This document shows, piece after piece, positions 6,842 to 19,133 of a stretch of 42,303 nt of DNA. This DNA is from a virus. A model generated the notes under the pieces. That model did not search any database, was not told the DNA's origin, and saw only the letters and a program-made list of their open reading frames with translations. Every line of letters begins with the position of its first letter. Position 1 is the first letter of the stretch. The stretch is from positions 1 through 42,303 of IMG/VR virus record IMGVR_UViG_3300021197_001376, one strand, 5' to 3'. Made by a program: the position numbers and the translations under genes.

Positions 6842-7095
6842 TGTTTGATAAGATGTTTGGTTTTATATTTAATCAACCTATACATAAAACACTAAGACAG
6901 ATGAGAATAGCTACTATATGTATTCTCATAGTTTCTTTGGATATTATGTATAAATTGGTTTCTATATTAGAGAAAGGTGGTGAGTTATCACCAGCACAAA
7001 CAACAGGAGCTGTTGCTACATTAGCAGCTGCTGTGTTTGCGTCTATTTGGAAAGGTATTAGTAATCTTGCTGAAGTTCATAAGGATGATGACTAA
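6841..7095 (+). CDS. Small holin-like protein with two TM segments
   Basis: This encodes 84 residues with hydrophobic segments at about 22-42 and 52-70, a short linker with GGELSPAQ, and a charged C-terminus ending in DDD, the classic build of a class II holin. It overlaps the preceding gene's stop by one base and has a GGAGAAA ribosome site. With two adjacent membrane proteins, one may be the holin and the other an antiholin. Its stop codon overlaps the stop codon of the opposing dCMP deaminase gene. Confidence 0.65.
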   Translation: MFDKMFGFIFNQPIHKTLRQMRIATICILIVSLDIMYKLVSILEKGGELSPAQTTGAVATLAAAVFASIWKGISNLAEVHKDDD

Positions 7096-7577
7096 TCAAC
7101 TAAAGCAGATTCTTTTACAAACCTATGGACTTCGGATAAATCACCTTTGTACTTAGTCCATTTTCTTCCAGACATCTCCCAAAAATCTTTAGCTTCATTC
7201 CCAGGGTATTCTTCAAGAAATATAATTTCCTTACAACCAGTATTCAATAGCAATTTAGTGCAAGTAATACATGGTGAAGTTGTTACAAAAGCCCTTTCAA
7301 TCTTATTAACATCTGGACATTGTAGTAGAGCGTTTTGTTCGGCGTGGATAGCTTGACATAAATTCAAACCTTCACCTGATTTACAATTACTACCAGGACA
7401 CTTTTCGTTATTAGAACAATTAGACATTCCCATAGGAGTTCCATTGTATCCAGTCGATAGGATGTGAGATTTATCATCTATTAATACACATCCGACTTTC
7501 CGTCTTGAACAAGAGGCTCTCAATGAGAGCACTCTAGTTAAGATTAGAAAGTATTGAATTTTATTCAATCTTTCCAT
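7092..7577 (-). CDS. Deoxycytidylate (dCMP) deaminase
   Basis: This encodes 161 residues that convert dCMP to dUMP in the cytoplasm, supplying the dTMP pathway. The cytidine-deaminase zinc motifs are clear: His78-Ala-Glu80 (HAEQNAL) and Cys103-x2-Cys106 (PCITC). Additional cysteines between residues 54 and 74 resemble the extra zinc site of T4-type dCMP deaminases. I chose the ATG at 7577 because GAGGAAT lies 9-10 bases upstream; the longer open frame to 7640 has no good site. The gene overlaps the thymidylate-synthase-like gene by 17 bases and ends the leftward arm. Confidence 0.9.
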   Translation of the reverse strand: MERLNKIQYFLILTRVLSLRASCSRRKVGCVLIDDKSHILSTGYNGTPMGMSNCSNNEKCPGSNCKSGEGLNLCQAIHAEQNALLQCPDVNKIERAFVTTSPCITCTKLLLNTGCKEIIFLEEYPGNEAKDFWEMSGRKWTKYKGDLSEVHRFVKESALVD

Positions 7578-8394
7578 TGTTAAAGATTCCTCGTACTTGT
7601 TTAATATTAAGTTCACGGTCGTACCAGTATGACTGAGCAAGTAACTCTAGGGTCTCCAGAATGACATCAGGATGAGTACAAGCTTTAGTGTTAATACTTT
7701 CATCGACTTCATGTACACAACCTTCAGAGTACATACTGAGGATGTCTCCTGCAGCTTCATAATCCTTAGAATAGAGATGTTGTGAACCAGTTGTTAAGTA
7801 TAAATTACCAAGTTCTAATTCAATACCATGTTTTTCACGCAAGGCAACTAACACCCAATTTGAAATCATAGAAAAATTAAATACGTCATAAACCCAACCA
7901 AGCCAAGCATCTGATGAACGCATATTGGTCATACAATTCAACTTACCATCACGAATTAACCATTGCATATTTAATGTACATGGATAATCTTTAGTTGGTC
8001 GTGGATTCTCACGCCAGATATTAAGAACAGCTTGTCGTGTATTCTGGTCTTTGGCAAGAGTTTCTACAATATAATCTAGTTGCTCAACAATTTTAGGACC
8101 ATAGGCTCCACGGAAAGTGATACCATTGTCACTGAACTGAGCAATGTTTTTCATATATTGAGCAATATCCGCAACACGATTACTGCCTGATAATATCCAC
8201 CACGCTTCAGCAAACATAAAACGATAATTAAGTTTGCGTTCAGGGATATTAACTATTGGAGAATTCATATCAATAACAGATGTATGAGCAAGAATCTCTT
8301 TAGTTGGAATTCCACGTGGAGCGATAGCCTCGCCATCACGAGAAATTGTGCTAAGTAGACTTAACCATGCAATACTTGCTGAATTACTTTGCAT
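7561..8394 (-). CDS. Thymidylate synthase family enzyme, probable dCMP hydroxymethylase (or dCMP methylase)
   Basis: This encodes 277 residues of the thymidylate synthase fold. Catalytic Cys139 lies in DYPCTLNMQWLIRDGKLN; the phosphate-binding segment is NMRSSD (157-162); the sugar-binding His206 and Tyr208 are in GSQHLYS. The residue matching E. coli ThyA Asn177, which reads uracil, is Asp170 here (WLGWVYDVFN). T4 gp42 (dCMP hydroxymethylase) has Asp179 at that position and shares the same CTxxxQxLIRDxKxN and NMRSxD pattern. In known mutants, Asn to Asp at this site shifts preference from dUMP to dCMP. The C-terminus lacks the ThyA-type ending. I therefore infer use of dCMP; whether the product is hydroxymethyl- or methyl-dCMP cannot be told. 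Confidence 0.75.
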   Translation of the reverse strand: MQSNSASIAWLSLLSTISRDGEAIAPRGIPTKEILAHTSVIDMNSPIVNIPERKLNYRFMFAEAWWILSGSNRVADIAQYMKNIAQFSDNGITFRGAYGPKIVEQLDYIVETLAKDQNTRQAVLNIWRENPRPTKDYPCTLNMQWLIRDGKLNCMTNMRSSDAWLGWVYDVFNFSMISNWVLVALREKHGIELELGNLYLTTGSQHLYSKDYEAAGDILSMYSEGCVHEVDESINTKACTHPDVILETLELLAQSYWYDRELNIKQVRGIFNNGKIE

Positions 8395-9433
8395 ACTGTA
8401 CCTCTCTTAATTTAGTTATAATTGAATTACACGCTGCGCCCATATCATTACCTTGTAACATAAAGTCATAATGTATTGTATTGTGCATTTTTTCTAAACC
8501 ACCCTGTTCTACAATCTTATTACAGATTGGAGATTTGAAAGTATTATGGTAGACGCCATTCCATAATGCACAATACATAGCATAAACATCAAGAGTGTTA
8601 TCATACATTTCTTCACGTTCAGTTTTTAACTGTTCATAATGTGTATGGTAATCATTAATATTTTCAGGGAAACAGACAACGTTGATTGCTTTAGCTTCAT
8701 TAATAATATACATTAAGGATTGATGTAAGCCATTCCATTGCGAACCATTACGGTAAACATTAGAATAAACAACTTCACTTAACCAATGACGGTCAATGAT
8801 AACGAGTTTTTCTTTGGACAATTCTTTAGCTGCATCAAGAGCTTCAATTTGGTATTCATCCATAATTTTTTCTAGGTCTTCAGACCAAGTTAAATGAATA
8901 TACTCAGCATTGAATTTCTCAACAAGATGTTCAGCAAGAGTTGTTTTACCACAACCGTCTGGACCTTCAAGAATAATAATACCTGTAGGATTACCATCCA
9001 TAATACCATCAAAGCTAGGAGCTTCCCAACCAACAGGTTTAACTAAATCACGTGAAAAACCACGTTTAGAAGCTTCATTACTACCTGCTAATTCTTTCGC
9101 AAGATTGGCATTCATAACTCTGTCGAATGCACCGTCAAAATTAAAACCTTGACGTTCAGCTGTACCCATAGTGAATACACATAAATCAACCAATGCATCT
9201 AATTGTTCTTGACCATCAGGATTTTCACGTAATTCAAGTCTATCTAACATTGTGACTACATGTTGAATTTGAGCTGAAATATCAACCCCTAGATATATTG
9301 CATCTAAATATTCAAATAGTTCTTCAGCCATTGCACGAATACGGAATTTATATTCTTCAGCCGATAAGAAAGTTGGACCTTCATTATTAACTAAACCAAA
9401 TTTTGTATGGAACTGCTTTATTTTATTAAACAT
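8384..9433 (-). CDS. Fusion: MazG-like pyrophosphohydrolase + dNMP kinase-like domain
   Basis: This encodes 349 residues in two domains. Residues ~20-125 look like a MazG-type all-alpha NTP pyrophosphatase: acidic metal ligands around 37-41 (AEELFEYLD) and 79-83 (LDALVDLC), then the phage-typical GFNFDGAFDRVMNANLAK. Residues ~150-349 are a thymidylate-kinase-like P-loop domain with Walker A GPDGCGKTT near 157-165 and a DRHW motif about 50 residues later. MazG enzymes hydrolyse dNTPs to dNMPs, while the kinase raises a dNMP to dNDP. In T4 these jobs (dCTPase gp56, hydroxymethyl-dCMP kinase gp1) belong to cytosine replacement. The substrate is inferred from context. Both gene ends overlap neighbours. 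Confidence 0.8.
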   Translation of the reverse strand: MFNKIKQFHTKFGLVNNEGPTFLSAEEYKFRIRAMAEELFEYLDAIYLGVDISAQIQHVVTMLDRLELRENPDGQEQLDALVDLCVFTMGTAERQGFNFDGAFDRVMNANLAKELAGSNEASKRGFSRDLVKPVGWEAPSFDGIMDGNPTGIIILEGPDGCGKTTLAEHLVEKFNAEYIHLTWSEDLEKIMDEYQIEALDAAKELSKEKLVIIDRHWLSEVVYSNVYRNGSQWNGLHQSLMYIINEAKAINVVCFPENINDYHTHYEQLKTEREEMYDNTLDVYAMYCALWNGVYHNTFKSPICNKIVEQGGLEKMHNTIHYDFMLQGNDMGAACNSIITKLREVQYAK

Positions 9434-10245
9434 TATTTATCTCTCGCTTTACCAGGTTCTTCGCCACTAAACTTAACAATTGAATCGATAAGTTCACATT
9501 CATCATGGTCAAGATTATCTTCTCGAACACAGACGTGGGTTATATTACGTGATGCTTCAGGATATTTAGGACTCAAGAAACAACCAAGCAATTCATTACC
9601 ATAGAATTCGCCTAAAGATTTCTGCAATGCAATTTCTTCTTTAGTAGCAACTTTCTTAATATCATTTTGATTACCAAAAGTACCGAATTGTTTAATGATT
9701 TTAAAACCTGCTTCATGTAATTCATCTTCAATTTCAGACTTGGTCAATTCATTAATGTGATTACGGGCTTGTTTATATGATGAGCAGTAAATTGGAGTGC
9801 TGAAAATCAACATACCTTCATCTGACAATAGGTCATGCATACCTTTTAACAATTGCTTACCGCTCTGCAGGTCCATATGTTCATAAACTTCAAAGTTAAC
9901 AATTAAATCAAACAAACCATATTCAAATTCAAGTTCTTCATAATTATCTAAGAAATTGAATTCATCATGGGTATTGAAGTTCTTACGAGAAATTGGATTA
10001 CTGATTTTATTCAAATCAACACCAACATATTCTTTAGGAACTGACGTAGGATTTGCACCACCTAAACTTCTGGCAAATGGTTGCTCTTGACCACAGCCTA
10101 CATCAAGTACACGCATTTTATTATTGACGTATTTAGATGCAAATCCCCAACGGAATATATGACCTAAATAATCTTTATGTGGTTGGTACTGAAATTGAGC
10201 CATTTTCAGTTGGGTTTTATCGAATGCTCTTTTATCTTCTGACAT
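9433..10245 (-). CDS. Class I SAM-dependent methyltransferase
   Basis: This encodes 270 residues. Motif I is RVLDVGCGQEQP (residues 45-56), followed by the acidic residue of motif II in EYVGVDLNK (Asp77) and a post-II segment FDLIVNFEVYEH (112-123), typical of the Methyltransf_11/23 group of small-molecule methyltransferases. There is no DPPY or PC catalytic motif of a DNA methyltransferase, so DNA is an unlikely direct substrate. It is co-transcribed with the MazG-kinase fusion (stop and start overlap by one or a few bases), suggesting action on a nucleotide or a modified base, which is inference. AAGGAAAAAGC precedes the start. Confidence 0.75.
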   Translation of the reverse strand: MSEDKRAFDKTQLKMAQFQYQPHKDYLGHIFRWGFASKYVNNKMRVLDVGCGQEQPFARSLGGANPTSVPKEYVGVDLNKISNPISRKNFNTHDEFNFLDNYEELEFEYGLFDLIVNFEVYEHMDLQSGKQLLKGMHDLLSDEGMLIFSTPIYCSSYKQARNHINELTKSEIEDELHEAGFKIIKQFGTFGNQNDIKKVATKEEIALQKSLGEFYGNELLGCFLSPKYPEASRNITHVCVREDNLDHDECELIDSIVKFSGEEPGKARDK

Positions 10246-11795: not shown

Positions 11796-12365
11796 CTATA
11801 TTAATAAACTAGCATGTCTTAATAAACCAGTTTTTATTCTTTCGTCAGATTGTTGTTTTGATAGAGTAATAAGATGGGAATGTCTTTCTCTATTGTAGAC
11901 TATTTGAGCTTCTTCTAATGTATAAAACGAACCTAACCATTTGTCTAAATGTCTGGCTATGTATTTATTTCTTCTTTTAATTATACCTCTAGGCAACTTA
12001 CTTTTTGGGCCTCCATGCACTAGTAGAGCATTCAAATCATTAGAAATAAACAAACAAGTATCTGGTCCATATATTTTGTTATTAGGGAAAAGTAAATCTT
12101 TATCCAAATGTTTATCTTCCCAGTGTTGAGTTTCCATCCATTTCTTAAAATTCATAAAACTATGCCAATGTTCATATACATCTACATCTTTGTATGATGG
12201 TTTATCAATGTGGTATTTAGGATTATATGCTCTATTTATCATTTGGAACCATCTTCTATAAAACGGGCAGCATGTTTTCACACCATCAATAACCGGCTTA
12301 ACCACGTAGTCGGCATCATTTATATAAATTCCAAATATAGGTTTTCTAGTTTTTCTTATTGCCAT
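11796..12365 (-). CDS. HNH-type homing endonuclease-like protein (T7 gp5.3-like)
   Basis: This encodes 189 residues resembling the phage family typified by T7 gp5.3/7.7. Conserved patches are CPFYRRWFQMINRAY (33-47), PSYKDVDVYEHW (56-67), HLDKDLLFPNNKIYGPDTC (86-104) and FISNDLNALL. These proteins are usually free-standing homing nucleases that move between phages. It overlaps the VRR-NUC stop by 10 bases and has an AAGGA site 9 bases before the ATG. It interrupts the common VRR-NUC to helicase gene pair, consistent with insertion. Activity is unproven. Confidence 0.75.
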   Translation of the reverse strand: MAIRKTRKPIFGIYINDADYVVKPVIDGVKTCCPFYRRWFQMINRAYNPKYHIDKPSYKDVDVYEHWHSFMNFKKWMETQHWEDKHLDKDLLFPNNKIYGPDTCLFISNDLNALLVHGGPKSKLPRGIIKRRNKYIARHLDKWLGSFYTLEEAQIVYNRERHSHLITLSKQQSDERIKTGLLRHASLLI

Positions 12366-13187: not shown

Positions 13188-15173
13188 TTATTTTCTGTAT
13201 CTATATCCTTCCCAACCTTCAGCTTTTAATGGTAATCCCTCAGCCCATTTTGGTAATACACACATGATGTCACAATATTCTTTTACATCACCAAAATCTT
13301 TATCAACTTCAGAAATCGCTTCATCGTGTACTGACATCAGCACTGGATAATCATTTGCTTCTAATCTTAATAAAGCTTCAGCCATTATATCTCTACTTAC
13401 AGCTTGGTCAACGTTCTCCGTTAATTTACCACCATATGTAGTCGTTTCTTTCCATCGACCATCAGAATATGTCATATAATGAAGAGTCATTTTCATATCA
13501 CCCCAAGCAGTCTTTGCCATTTTATAACTGGCTCCTGGATATTTTAATGTTCTACCACTTGGTAATTTACATAATAGATAATATTTGCCATCAAATTTAT
13601 ATTTAATTTTCTTGTATGTAAATACACACCCAGGATTTTCCATAGCTTTACATGCAGCTTCTTCTAATCCATACCACAATTTAACTACTGAACTGAATTT
13701 CTTACGGTATGTAGTAACAACCTGTTTAGAGAATGATTCTTCAATTGTAACACCAAAACCATCACACGATGCAACGAATTTAGGAGCTCCCATTTGGTAA
13801 CCCAAACCTAATATCGCTTGCTTACCCATGAATCTCATCATTTCGTATTCAGCAATTTCTTTTTTATAACCGCTCCAAATCTTCTGGTATGGTGTATTAT
13901 AGATACCCGATGCCATATCAGAATAGATACACTCACCGCGTCTAAATATATCCATCGCTGATTCATCTTCAGCAAGCCAAAATAAAACTCTCGCTTCAAT
14001 AGCAGCATAATCGGCAGATACAAATTTCTTACCTGGAGGTGGAATTATCATTGAACGAATAGCAGATGATGCGAGTATTAATGGATTATCATACCATGTC
14101 TCAACGTCATCTAAATTACCTGAACTGAGGACATCTACGATGAATTCTGGGTCATCTTTTATTATAGGTCTAGGTAAGTTTTGTATTTGAATTCCAGCAC
14201 CTCCCCAGCGTCCTGTGTGAGCCTTATGATATACTAAAACTTCATGCACTCTACCATCTTCAGCAATTTTATTTATCATCGCCTGATATTTAGCTGTTGA
14301 TGATTTACCAAGAATTTGTCGTATTTGCAAAACCTCTTTTACATTATCTGGTATTTTAGGTTTTGCTAATGCCTTCTCAATATCTTCTTTGGTATAACCT
14401 GGAAGTGAGAATCCTTGGTCATCACACCATTCTAATATTTTTGCACGTTGACCAGATGTCGTAAATCTACCACCAGACAATTCTTTAAGACGATTTTCGT
14501 ATTTAATTGCAGTTTGTTCTAAAACTTTAATAGTCGCTTTAACAGCTTCAATATCAATATAAATACCACGCCAATTGATTAGTTGGTCGAGTAACCAAAT
14601 TTCAATTTCAGTTTCAGTCATATCAGCAAGAAAATTAGAAAGAATTATTTCAGTATCAACATCAGTCACACAATAGTCACCGAGTTGTCTCATTAATATT
14701 GGGTCATTATTCCATTCTTCGGTATTTTTCTTTGTAATACGTCTTGGCTTACAAAGTTTCTGGATTAATGATTTACCAATTTTATCTTTCTTTATATCTA
14801 AATCTAGCGCTGTACCAGCAACATCTAAAGAACCAGGAATACCATTAGCTCTACACTTTGCCATACTACAACGCCACTGATTAAGTGGCATAGGAGGAAA
14901 ATCTAAATTTGGTACACCAACTAAATTCCATATACAGTGCTCAAAGAATGAATGGTGGGCTTCGACTAATTTACCTGCTTCTATATGCTCTCTAAGCTCC
15001 TCTGGGAACTCTTCATGAGGCCACCATAGGATAGTATCTAAGTCATCACCAGTGAGGTTATATGACATACAGAGGATTCTAGTTGACTCATCCTCTGCAT
15101 ATCTATAAGCTCCTGTCTTCATCAAATCAGCCTTTGACCGAGTCTCAAAATCAATAGTGCAATGTTGTGACAT
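13188..15173 (-). CDS. Family A DNA polymerase with 3'-5' exonuclease domain
   Basis: This encodes the 661-residue replicative polymerase. The N-terminal DEDDy exonuclease shows TIDFETRSKAD (Exo I), AHHSFFEHCIW (Exo II position) and DYCVTDVDTE (Exo III). The polymerase half has motif A VSADYAAIEARVLFWLA, motif B in FMGKQAILGLGYQMG and motif C MSVHDEAISEVD, all intact. Length is normal for phage PolA-type enzymes lacking the 5' nuclease. The start overlaps the stop of the preceding gene by one base and is preceded by GAGGG. It works with the ssDNA-binding protein, helicase and primase in this window. Confidence 0.95.
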   Translation of the reverse strand: MSQHCTIDFETRSKADLMKTGAYRYAEDESTRILCMSYNLTGDDLDTILWWPHEEFPEELREHIEAGKLVEAHHSFFEHCIWNLVGVPNLDFPPMPLNQWRCSMAKCRANGIPGSLDVAGTALDLDIKKDKIGKSLIQKLCKPRRITKKNTEEWNNDPILMRQLGDYCVTDVDTEIILSNFLADMTETEIEIWLLDQLINWRGIYIDIEAVKATIKVLEQTAIKYENRLKELSGGRFTTSGQRAKILEWCDDQGFSLPGYTKEDIEKALAKPKIPDNVKEVLQIRQILGKSSTAKYQAMINKIAEDGRVHEVLVYHKAHTGRWGGAGIQIQNLPRPIIKDDPEFIVDVLSSGNLDDVETWYDNPLILASSAIRSMIIPPPGKKFVSADYAAIEARVLFWLAEDESAMDIFRRGECIYSDMASGIYNTPYQKIWSGYKKEIAEYEMMRFMGKQAILGLGYQMGAPKFVASCDGFGVTIEESFSKQVVTTYRKKFSSVVKLWYGLEEAACKAMENPGCVFTYKKIKYKFDGKYYLLCKLPSGRTLKYPGASYKMAKTAWGDMKMTLHYMTYSDGRWKETTTYGGKLTENVDQAVSRDIMAEALLRLEANDYPVLMSVHDEAISEVDKDFGDVKEYCDIMCVLPKWAEGLPLKAEGWEGYRYRK

Positions 15174-17362: not shown

Positions 17363-18637
17363 TTATTCTTCGTCTTCCATCCCATTAAAATCACCAGTAA
17401 TCGAAGGTTCAACAGCCTTACGTTTATCGGATAGTGGAGCTACAACTAACTTACCTTCAGGTTTGATAGTTATATCATCCATTATTGCTTTGGCATCTTT
17501 AACACCAACTTTCTTTTTAAGACGCTTTTCAATCTCAGTCATTGAGCGAGGTTTTTCAACATACATATCGTCATGTTCTAAATAGTCAACCAATGGAGAG
17601 AAATCTTCATCAAGAGCTTCTTCAGTAAACTTACGATTGGTTTTACTTCGTACCAATTTGAAATGGTCTTTATAATCAGTAGAACCAGCATCAACATCAA
17701 CCTTGATACTATTCTCAACTGCTACTAAGAACGATCGTATCATAGGAATGTGTTCAGCAACACTAATTTTTTGCTCAATTGTCATATTAACAGGGTCAGG
17801 GAATTGTTCACCTTCAAATTCAACCATTGCCTGTTCTTGTACCATTTGATATTGAGCACCGCATGGAGCACATGGACAGAACTTACAACCTTCTTCTGAT
17901 GGAACAATTGGAGCATCATCTTCAAGAGTTAATTTAGCAGCTGGAATAAGTTCATCTTCTTCCCAATTGTAAACAAAATCTTTATCAACTTCCCACCAAC
18001 GGATTGGACCAAGTTTATGGAATGCTCTTGGCTGAGATATGGTGATACGAATACCGCCTGGAATACCTTCACCATTAAATCGAGGATTCATAATAACACC
18101 AAGTGTATAATTCAATGCTTGAGTATTATCTTCAGCTTCTACTACAACACCAGCTCCATGTTTATAATCCAGAACTTCAATTGAATGTAAGTATTCTTTA
18201 CCTTCATCATTAATAGCCCAGAATAGTAATACAACATCTGATGTACCACCATCAAGACCTGGGATTCCAATGTAACTTAGTGAAGCTTTAACTTCAACTA
18301 GGATTTCAACTCTCATGTCTTCAAGAGCAGCTTCTTCAATTCGGTCTCTAATATAATCAAGAGATTCCTGAACAGCTTCAGCCATATTCTTGTTGACAAC
18401 AAACTCAAAACCGTCAGCTTTAAATTTCTTACCAAGGTAATCATTGGCATCTAAGTTTTTCACCAAACATAATTCATGGACTTCGTGAGCAACTGTACCT
18501 TCAGCTGCGAACTTAGATGTAGAATTCTCTATACCTAATTTCTCTTGAAGTTTAATTGACCCAGGGCACTTCATCCATCTCTTAGAAGCCGAAGGCGACA
18601 ATTTAGAATGTGATTTAGCTTCTATTTCTTCAGACAT
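17363..18637 (-). CDS. DUF2800 protein, RecB/Cas4-like nuclease
   Basis: This encodes a 424-residue protein of the DUF2800 family, related to PD-(D/E)xK nucleases. Expected elements are the N-terminal LSPSASKRWMKCPGS, EGTVAHEVHEL, the catalytic-type region DGGTSDVVLL followed about 20 residues later by VLDYKHGAGV, and a Cys cluster EGCKFCPCAPCGAQ that may bind a metal or an iron-sulphur cluster as in Cas4/AddB. It probably processes DNA ends in replication or recombination with the adjacent ssDNA-binding protein. The ATG at 18637 has GGGAGAA 7 bases upstream; a longer frame to 18670 lies inside the HNH gene. Confidence 0.87.
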   Translation of the reverse strand: MSEEIEAKSHSKLSPSASKRWMKCPGSIKLQEKLGIENSTSKFAAEGTVAHEVHELCLVKNLDANDYLGKKFKADGFEFVVNKNMAEAVQESLDYIRDRIEEAALEDMRVEILVEVKASLSYIGIPGLDGGTSDVVLLFWAINDEGKEYLHSIEVLDYKHGAGVVVEAEDNTQALNYTLGVIMNPRFNGEGIPGGIRITISQPRAFHKLGPIRWWEVDKDFVYNWEEDELIPAAKLTLEDDAPIVPSEEGCKFCPCAPCGAQYQMVQEQAMVEFEGEQFPDPVNMTIEQKISVAEHIPMIRSFLVAVENSIKVDVDAGSTDYKDHFKLVRSKTNRKFTEEALDEDFSPLVDYLEHDDMYVEKPRSMTEIEKRLKKKVGVKDAKAIMDDITIKPEGKLVVAPLSDKRKAVEPSITGDFNGMEDEE

Positions 18638-19133
18638 TATTCTTTCTCCCGTGATTTTTATGGAAACCATATTTAATCTCTGCTTCTTTTCTAACAGAGA
18701 TTGCTTTATCTAAATCATCAAATCTACCTAGGCTTTTTATTTTTCCATTGATGCCTATGTTAACTCGCCAATTTAATCTATCATTACACCAAGTAACTCC
18801 TCTATATCCTGAGGAACTTGTTTTACCTACTGATGAATTCTTTACATTCTCAGATTGAGGAACATCTCTTAAATTTGATATTCTGTTATTACTTCTATCG
18901 CCATCGATGTGGTCAATTTGGTATTTAGGCCACTTACCATAATGATAGAACCAAGCTAATTGATGAGCATAATATTCAGTTCCATCTAAACCAATTCTAG
19001 TATAACCTTTCCAACCACTGCCTGCATTAGAATTAACTTTTATTCTTGGACTAGTTGGATTAATCCACGTGAATATTCCTGTATCACTATCATATGATAG
19101 AACATGTTTTAATCTAAGTGAAGTTACTCTCAT
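18630..19133 (-). CDS. HNH endonuclease with AP2-type DNA-binding domain
   Basis: This encodes 167 residues. The HNH_3 motif is IDHIDGDRSNNRISNLR (residues 73-89), with Asp74-His75, preceded by YYAHQLAWFYHYGKWP, and followed by an AP2-like DNA-binding domain from SGYRGVTW (109) to about 150. This is the classic arrangement of free-standing phage homing endonucleases. It overlaps the DUF2800 start by 8 bases and follows the 60-residue gene by one base with a poor ribosome site, consistent with insertion into an existing operon. Confidence 0.92.
   Translation of the reverse strand: MRVTSLRLKHVLSYDSDTGIFTWINPTSPRIKVNSNAGSGWKGYTRIGLDGTEYYAHQLAWFYHYGKWPKYQIDHIDGDRSNNRISNLRDVPQSENVKNSSVGKTSSSGYRGVTWCNDRLNWRVNIGINGKIKSLGRFDDLDKAISVRKEAEIKYGFHKNHGRKNNV

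Follow-up and report, generated by a model that had tools for sequence, protein, structure and literature searches.

Replacing cytosine is one of the main means by which phages evade restriction and certain CRISPR nucleases, and what is known of its biochemistry derives to a large extent from T4. The T4 pathway comprises gp56, gp1, gp42 and cd, which provide dCTP removal, a dNMP kinase, the hydroxymethylase and a deaminase. A structural study of the T4 hydroxymethylase proposed Asp145 as the mark of this activity, the D145N mutant giving no product, and a Ser or Thr before the catalytic Tyr as part of the signature, the S94A mutant retaining about 25% activity (PMC6400193). In phage metagenomes, MetaGPA found that positions 177 and 147 of the synthase show the strongest association with enzyme-resistant cytosine, with mostly Asp at 177; Asp177 combined with an altered residue 147 marks contigs with enzyme-resistant, modified cytosine, domains of the PRA-PH and dCMP deaminase types are encoded near such synthases, and an engineered thymidylate synthase methylase also carries Asp at the 177 site (PMC8670742).

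Among cultured phages, Stenotrophomonas phage AXL3 is a relative of the phage described here. Its DNA resists 35 of the 37 restriction enzymes, the cutters TasI and Tru1I having A/T-only sites; its authors suspected modified bases, yet interpreted the gene cluster as a dTMP synthesis pathway, and the phage encodes a separate thymidylate-synthase-complementing protein (PMC7504290).

Results

Identification of the synthase homologue and its active site

The DNA analysed is an IMG/VR virus record (IMGVR_UViG_3300021197_001376), and its whole stretch of 42,303 nucleotides is hereafter called the window; DNA-level comparison covering its first 25 kb retrieved no close phage. The original prediction placed a thymidylate synthase homologue at 7561-8394. 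These coordinates are right, and the strand, which was not given, is minus (7561..8394, ATG at 8394, stop at 7561, 277 residues), the plus-strand translation of the same interval containing many stops. The open reading frame overlaps its upstream and downstream neighbours, which lie on the same strand. Its product matches PF00303 (Thymidylat_synt, E = 3.2e-20) in Pfam and "thymidylate synthase" in PHROG (E = 2.6e-42), and has the thymidylate synthase fold with its catalytic Cys, Glu, Arg, His and Tyr. When aligned with ThyA of E. coli and gp42 of T4, it proves to have the complete catalytic set (Glu63, Arg120, Cys139, Arg159, Ser160, Asp162, His206 and Tyr208), the nucleophile being Cys139 (codon 7978..7980, minus strand).

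The cytosine-specifying residue, equivalent to ThyA Asn177 and T4 gp42 Asp179, is Asp170 (codon 7885..7887, minus strand). As predicted, it falls in the same column as ThyA Asn177 in the MAFFT alignment with ThyA and gp42, and the CTxxxQxLIRDxKxN and NMRSxD blocks agree with those of gp42. Asp170 is invariant in 21 of 21 diverse homologues. Moreover, Asp occupies this column in every one of the synthase homologues identified next to a homologue of the neighbouring methyltransferase (68/68), in a search made without any synthase sequence, and in four more synthases located elsewhere on methyltransferase contigs, which gives 72/72 in total; this frequency is taken solely from the methyltransferase-based search and these further contigs, as one peptide pattern used elsewhere contained the Asp and would bias it. 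Asp170 is thus not a chance substitution, since it is invariant among the homologues and present in every synthase reached through the methyltransferase. The MetaGPA positions 177 and 147 are Asp and Thr in this enzyme, and PRA-PH and dCMP deaminase domains are both present in the window. However, Asp at the 177 site also occurs in methylases (DLP4 and the engineered thymidylate synthase), so that Asp170 alone is no proof of hydroxymethylation.

A second pair of residues bears on the sugar. Arg120 and Ser160 are the forms found in dNMP enzymes, whereas MilA prefers CMP through Lys133 and Ala176 at these places; this deoxyribose-type pair points to dCMP as the substrate.

Comparison with hydroxymethylases and methylases

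Three residues before Cys139 lies Asp136 (codon 7987..7989, minus strand), which aligns with the water-activating Asp145 of the T4 hydroxymethylase and is invariant in A1 and A5; the same column holds Leu143 in ThyA and Asn in DLP4. The C-terminal tail of ThyA is absent from the 277-residue enzyme, and Trp80 and Trp83 of ThyA are replaced by Ile and Phe. T4 gp42 resembles the window enzyme in having Asp179 and Asp145 where the latter has Asp170 and Asp136, the same catalytic residues and no ThyA tail, but it is very distant in sequence (hhalign probability 98, E 7e-15) and forms a long separate branch.

MilA, the CMP hydroxymethylase of mildiomycin biosynthesis, which also carries Asp at the cytosine-reading site, is the nearest solved protein whether sequence, profile or fold is compared. 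It is the closest PDB sequence match (E 4.2e-26, against 3e-12 or worse for thymidylate synthases) and leads the profile search (E 2e-48; the best thymidylate synthase reaches 4e-27), and MilA chains take Foldseek ranks 1-7 for the AlphaFold model of the enzyme (pLDDT 88), with 35% identity and an rmsd of 2.0. MilA belongs to an antibiotic pathway, while the window enzyme would belong to a phage DNA pathway. In a maximum-likelihood tree, which has long branches (T4 gp42, SPO1) and was used solely for separation from ThyA and DLP4, the window enzyme falls within a clade of 16 sequences (99/98) and outside the branch that joins ThyA and DLP4 (100/99). Taken from sequence, the enzyme very probably functions like T4 gp42 while belonging to the MilA-like branch, which is not close to gp42.

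The Ser or Thr proposed to lie two residues ahead of the catalytic Tyr98 is absent, Gly96 (GAYG) standing where T4 has Ser94. This is not disqualifying, because SPO1 gp29, a known hydroxymethylase, has Ala at the equivalent position; a Ser or Thr before the Tyr is no strict requirement for a hydroxymethylase. SPO1 gp29, which acts on dUMP, further resembles the window enzyme by its superfamily, 33% identity, the Asp before the Cys and the lack of Trp80 and Trp83, but differs from it by Asn at the 177 site, a uracil substrate and 5hmU DNA.

As comparator for phages of the Xp12 type, whose DNA contains 5mC, we used DLP4, a relative of Xp12 whose synthase activity is itself presumed. Like the window, DLP4 has Asp at 177 and a deaminase and a pyrophosphatase nearby. 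In contrast, its synthase lies in the ThyA branch, DHFR is encoded beside its deaminase and synthase genes, and the annotation of its synthase cluster includes neither a kinase nor a methyltransferase, both of which the window operon has. A domain search of the whole record found no DHFR (PF00186), a weak point as the host DHFR could serve.

Thus, where the original prediction offered 5-hydroxymethyl- or 5-methyl-dCMP as the product, Asp136, the missing ThyA tail, the MilA-like fold, the tree and the lack of DHFR favour the former and speak against the latter. The 277-residue enzyme is very probably a dCMP 5-hydroxymethylase of the MilA-like branch of the thymidylate synthase superfamily, acting in a cytosine-precursor operon.

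Organisation of the operon

The putative hydroxymethylase is encoded by the third gene of an operon of overlapping genes, in the order methyltransferase, fused pyrophosphatase-kinase, hydroxymethylase and dCMP deaminase. The original prediction passed over these neighbours, namely the fusion, the deaminase and the co-conserved methyltransferase.

The fusion gene (8384..9433, minus strand) joins a MazG/DR2231-like NTP pyrophosphatase (residues about 1-145) to a P-loop nucleotide kinase (about 150-349). Its product matches PRA-PH and Thymidylate_kin/AAA_28 in Pfam, and nucleotide pyrophosphohydrolase and thymidylate kinase in PHROG; profile searches match the pyrophosphatase to DR2231 (E 1e-15) and the kinase to YorR of SPbeta (E 7e-15). 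Homology of the pyrophosphatase with T4 gp56 was not detected by hhalign (probability 0.1), and the kinase matches T4 gp1 in the P-loop only; the two are instead a DR2231-like protein and a YorR/TMK-like kinase. The pyrophosphatase and the kinase are separate genes in AXL3 and most relatives, and fused in a few. The same fusion occurs in a close relative of the window cluster on a contig filed under a Mollicutes MAG (L095), probably a binned phage contig, and about 30% identity over nearly the whole fusion is found in the large Vibrio phages BX-1, VAP7, SD25 and VP-1 (H66-H69, H72). Four other kinases (L007, L054, L079, L086) carry an extra C-terminal domain of about 140 residues (GEQVNPK ... 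HPSWVKRF) that has no Pfam match and by eye recalls the uracil-DNA-glycosylase superfamily; it is absent from the window kinase.

The deaminase gene (7092..7577, minus strand; PF00383 E 3e-17, PHROG dCMP deaminase E 2e-35) has its ATG inside the end of the hydroxymethylase gene, with a TTG at 7640 as an alternative start. The first gene (9433..10245, minus strand) encodes a class I SAM-dependent methyltransferase of Hen1/UbiG-like type (Methyltransf_23 E 9e-17; invariant E119xxE122-H123). Further upstream lies a family A DNA polymerase (13188..15173, minus strand; PF00476 E 3e-18), a recurrent member of the neighbourhood. When neighbouring ORFs were clustered, the polymerase cluster recurred in 108 loci, and the commonest clusters were the synthase, kinase, methyltransferase, polymerase, deaminase and an SNF2 helicase; among the most frequent of these clusters no glycosyltransferase or carbamoyltransferase partner was recognised. 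Two probable homing endonucleases sit inside the replication module of the window, one with HNH endonuclease matches in PHROG (11796-12365, minus strand) and one HNH-like by eye (18630-19133, minus strand).

Of 80 viral loci, 75 have the kinase adjacent to the synthase, and three of the five others are truncated just upstream; a methyltransferase is present in 42 of 80 viral relatives, one of these matches being weak. The order methyltransferase-pyrophosphatase-kinase-synthase-deaminase is common to AXL3, PW916, ct3Et533 and many IMG/VR contigs, and the SAR11 phages HTVC200P and HTVC119P have a reduced kinase and synthase pair. In AXL3, whose synthase is only about 50% identical to the window enzyme, gp27-gp31 show the same five activities in the same order, and the DNA is restriction-resistant; AXL3 differs by its separate pyrophosphatase and kinase genes, a cluster published solely as a dTMP pathway and a modified base that is presumed. 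The window operon also has the same predicted set of activities as the T4 pathway, but its genes are adjacent, two of them are fused, and a methyltransferase takes the place of the T4 glucosyltransferases.

Linkage of the methyltransferase

The 50,697 phage records include five with a homologue of the methyltransferase (METHYLTRANSFERASE; E < 1e-5), each of which has the operon cluster. With solely the methyltransferase as query, a search blind to the synthase retrieved 80 loci from viral contigs. Where at least 4.5 kb of downstream sequence was available, the synthase was present within a few kb in 59 of 63 loci; six methyltransferase contigs whose fetched stretch showed no synthase were followed further, and four of them carry an Asp-type synthase elsewhere. 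Two contigs show another arrangement, in which the methyltransferase is followed by a dUTPase_2-like gene (L130:4874-8626 and L133:6712-9355). L130 has in addition a C5 cytosine DNA methyltransferase near the methyltransferase, instead of the synthase, and L133 a UDP-galactopyranose mutase; both may be related modification systems that begin with a different step.

Hen1 and UbiG are among the profile matches of the methyltransferase (E 1e-6 to 1e-4), and E119, E122 and H123, invariant in 28 methyltransferase sequences, align with the EVIEH of Hen1 as an ExxEH motif that we take to be metal-binding. Beyond this motif and the weak profile similarity, the protein is unlike Hen1 and UbiG, with low identity, another N-terminal block (HxDY...HxxRW) and no close solved relative. 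Foldseek returned generic class I methyltransferases, CmoM-like folds included, and did not discriminate the target. A route to carboxymethylcytosine through CmoA was weighed on account of a published report (PMC12783734) and the CmoM-like fold matches, and was rejected: there is no CmoA among the NCBIfam matches of the methyltransferase, and what the operon encodes is a hydroxymethylase, not a C5 DNA methyltransferase.

Asp-type synthases in bacterial genomes

Asp-type synthases also occur in bacterial chromosomes and MAG contigs. At 11 loci, mainly of Comamonadaceae/Burkholderiales (L105, L109, L111, L113, L115-L120, L122), the synthase adjoins an aGPT-Pplase3/ADDT (amino acid:DNA transferase) gene, with a Pfam E of 1e-92 in L111; the conserved block also includes an IrrE/M78-peptidase HTH gene. 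This arrangement suggests that bacterial chromosomes or prophages encode a hypermodification of cytosine with amino acids. In Micromonosporaceae, the synthase lies near a carbamoyltransferase (L104, L107, L108) or a glycosyltransferase-like gene (L107, L108, L110, L112), an arrangement in actinobacterial genomes that resembles the pairing with a 5hmC carbamoyltransferase described by MetaGPA. Finally, at four loci of Clostridia and Brevibacillus (L101, L102, L103, L106), genes resembling thymidylate kinase and APH accompany an Asp-type synthase, joined at three of the four by a MazG-like gene recognised by eye; these loci possibly encode a bacimethrin-type pathway.

Discussion

The organisation of the operon suggests the following pathway. 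The MazG-like domain of the fusion would convert dCTP, and perhaps also dUTP, to the monophosphate, and the hydroxymethylase would combine dCMP with methylene-tetrahydrofolate and water to give 5-hydroxymethyl-dCMP, which the fused kinase would phosphorylate. The host NDP kinase would then form the triphosphate, and the family A polymerase of the phage would incorporate this modified precursor in place of dCTP, while the deaminase would turn leftover dCMP into dUMP for host dTMP synthesis. At the nucleotide or the DNA level, the Hen1/UbiG-like methyltransferase would add a methyl group to the modified base, with the hydroxymethyl oxygen as the likeliest acceptor, and the outcome would be a phage genome with restriction-resistant cytosines. 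The substrate, the product, the degree of replacement and the target of the methyltransferase are what we infer from the sequence. The original claim of a dCMP-using enzyme in a cytosine-replacing phage is strongly supported by the active-site residues, the operon genes and the restriction resistance of AXL3; replacement of cytosine by the phage, as a prediction from the residues, homology, gene order and linkage observed, is very probable, and the protection from CRISPR nucleases proposed with it would be a further prediction.

Other fates of dCMP in this operon have to be considered. The enzyme could be a dCMP 5-methylase like that presumed for Xp12-type phages, leading to 5-methylcytosine DNA, as DLP4 shares the Asp at the 177 site and its synthase too clusters with a deaminase and a pyrophosphatase. 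Yet DLP4 groups with ThyA (100/99), retains Trp80, has Asn before the Cys and a DHFR gene adjacent, whereas the window enzyme lacks both Trp residues and has Asp136, in a record with no DHFR match. The AXL3 digests point the same way. Eam1105I and AhdI recognise the same site. KpnI and Eam1105I are among the enzymes that fail on AXL3 DNA (PMC7504290), but KpnI and AhdI cut the fully 5mC-substituted DNA of Xp12 (PMC7653180), so that AXL3 DNA is probably not plain 5mC, and we consider a 5-methylase very unlikely. An alternative end of the pathway would make 5-hydroxymethyl-dCMP a mere intermediate, which the adjacent deaminase converts to 5-hydroxymethyl-dUMP, with thymine and not cytosine being replaced. 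The overlap of the deaminase gene with the end of the hydroxymethylase gene and the presence of a deaminase in many relatives would fit, but cleavage of AXL3 DNA occurs at A/T-only sites and fails at those containing G/C, the fetched stretch of several relatives has the kinase and synthase but lacks a deaminase, and MetaGPA ties this class of residues, together with deaminase domains, to modified cytosine (PMC8670742), which makes replacement of thymine highly improbable. The poorest candidate is an ordinary phage synthase converting dUMP to dTMP with the deaminase upstream in the pathway, as AXL3 and its relatives are annotated. Database names and the pathway reading of the AXL3 authors favour it (PMC7504290), but Asp instead of Asn at 177, the missing C-terminal tail, Asp in place of Leu143 and the MilA-like fold stand against it, the thymidylate-synthase-complementing protein of AXL3 is separate (PMC7504290), and the restriction-resistant DNA would be left unexplained.

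With a dCMP hydroxymethylase as the preferred reading, the role of the methyltransferase is the more delicate point. It probably modifies the 5-hydroxymethyl group further, so that the final base would probably differ from plain 5hmC, and by analogy with the metal-dependent O-methyltransferases Hen1 and UbiG the hydroxymethyl oxygen would be its most economical target. We tentatively propose, at somewhat less than even chances, that it acts on hydroxymethylated cytosine, either on the oxygen (giving 5-methoxymethylcytosine) or on another atom, to yield a hypermodified cytosine in a large group of uncultured phages as well as in AXL3 and PW916; with the same reserve, such a base would be made by methylation and not by glycosylation or carbamoylation. 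A literature search found no description of methoxymethylcytosine in a phage. The dependence of the methyltransferase on hmC is suggested by linkage. It could also be a bystander, for instance an RNA 2'-O-methyltransferase protecting tRNA, the base then being plain 5hmC: Hen1, an RNA 2'-O-methyltransferase, is among the profile matches, and the SAR11-phage relatives have the kinase and hydroxymethylase without a methyltransferase. This is rather unlikely, as the sole five records with a homologue among the 50,697 all have the operon cluster, and an Asp-type gene accompanies the methyltransferase in 59 of the 63 loci of the blind search, a tighter association than an RNA-repair gene would predict. 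Both 5hmC and a methylated derivative are thus candidates for the predicted virion base.

What is new in this locus is the fused pyrophosphatase-kinase, a predicted pathway that is parallel to that of T4 and partly non-homologous with it, and the tightly linked methyltransferase. The operon represents a compact counterpart to T4's route to the modified precursor, assembled in part from different protein families. It occurs in many environmental phages, among them SAR11 phages with a reduced version, and in phages that have been cultured. The names given in databases are corrected as well, since Asp-type genes are mostly annotated as thymidylate synthases. If the methyltransferase acts on 5hmC, it would represent a chemically new route to protected cytosine, could become a laboratory reagent, and would provide a test of recognition by type IV restriction enzymes.
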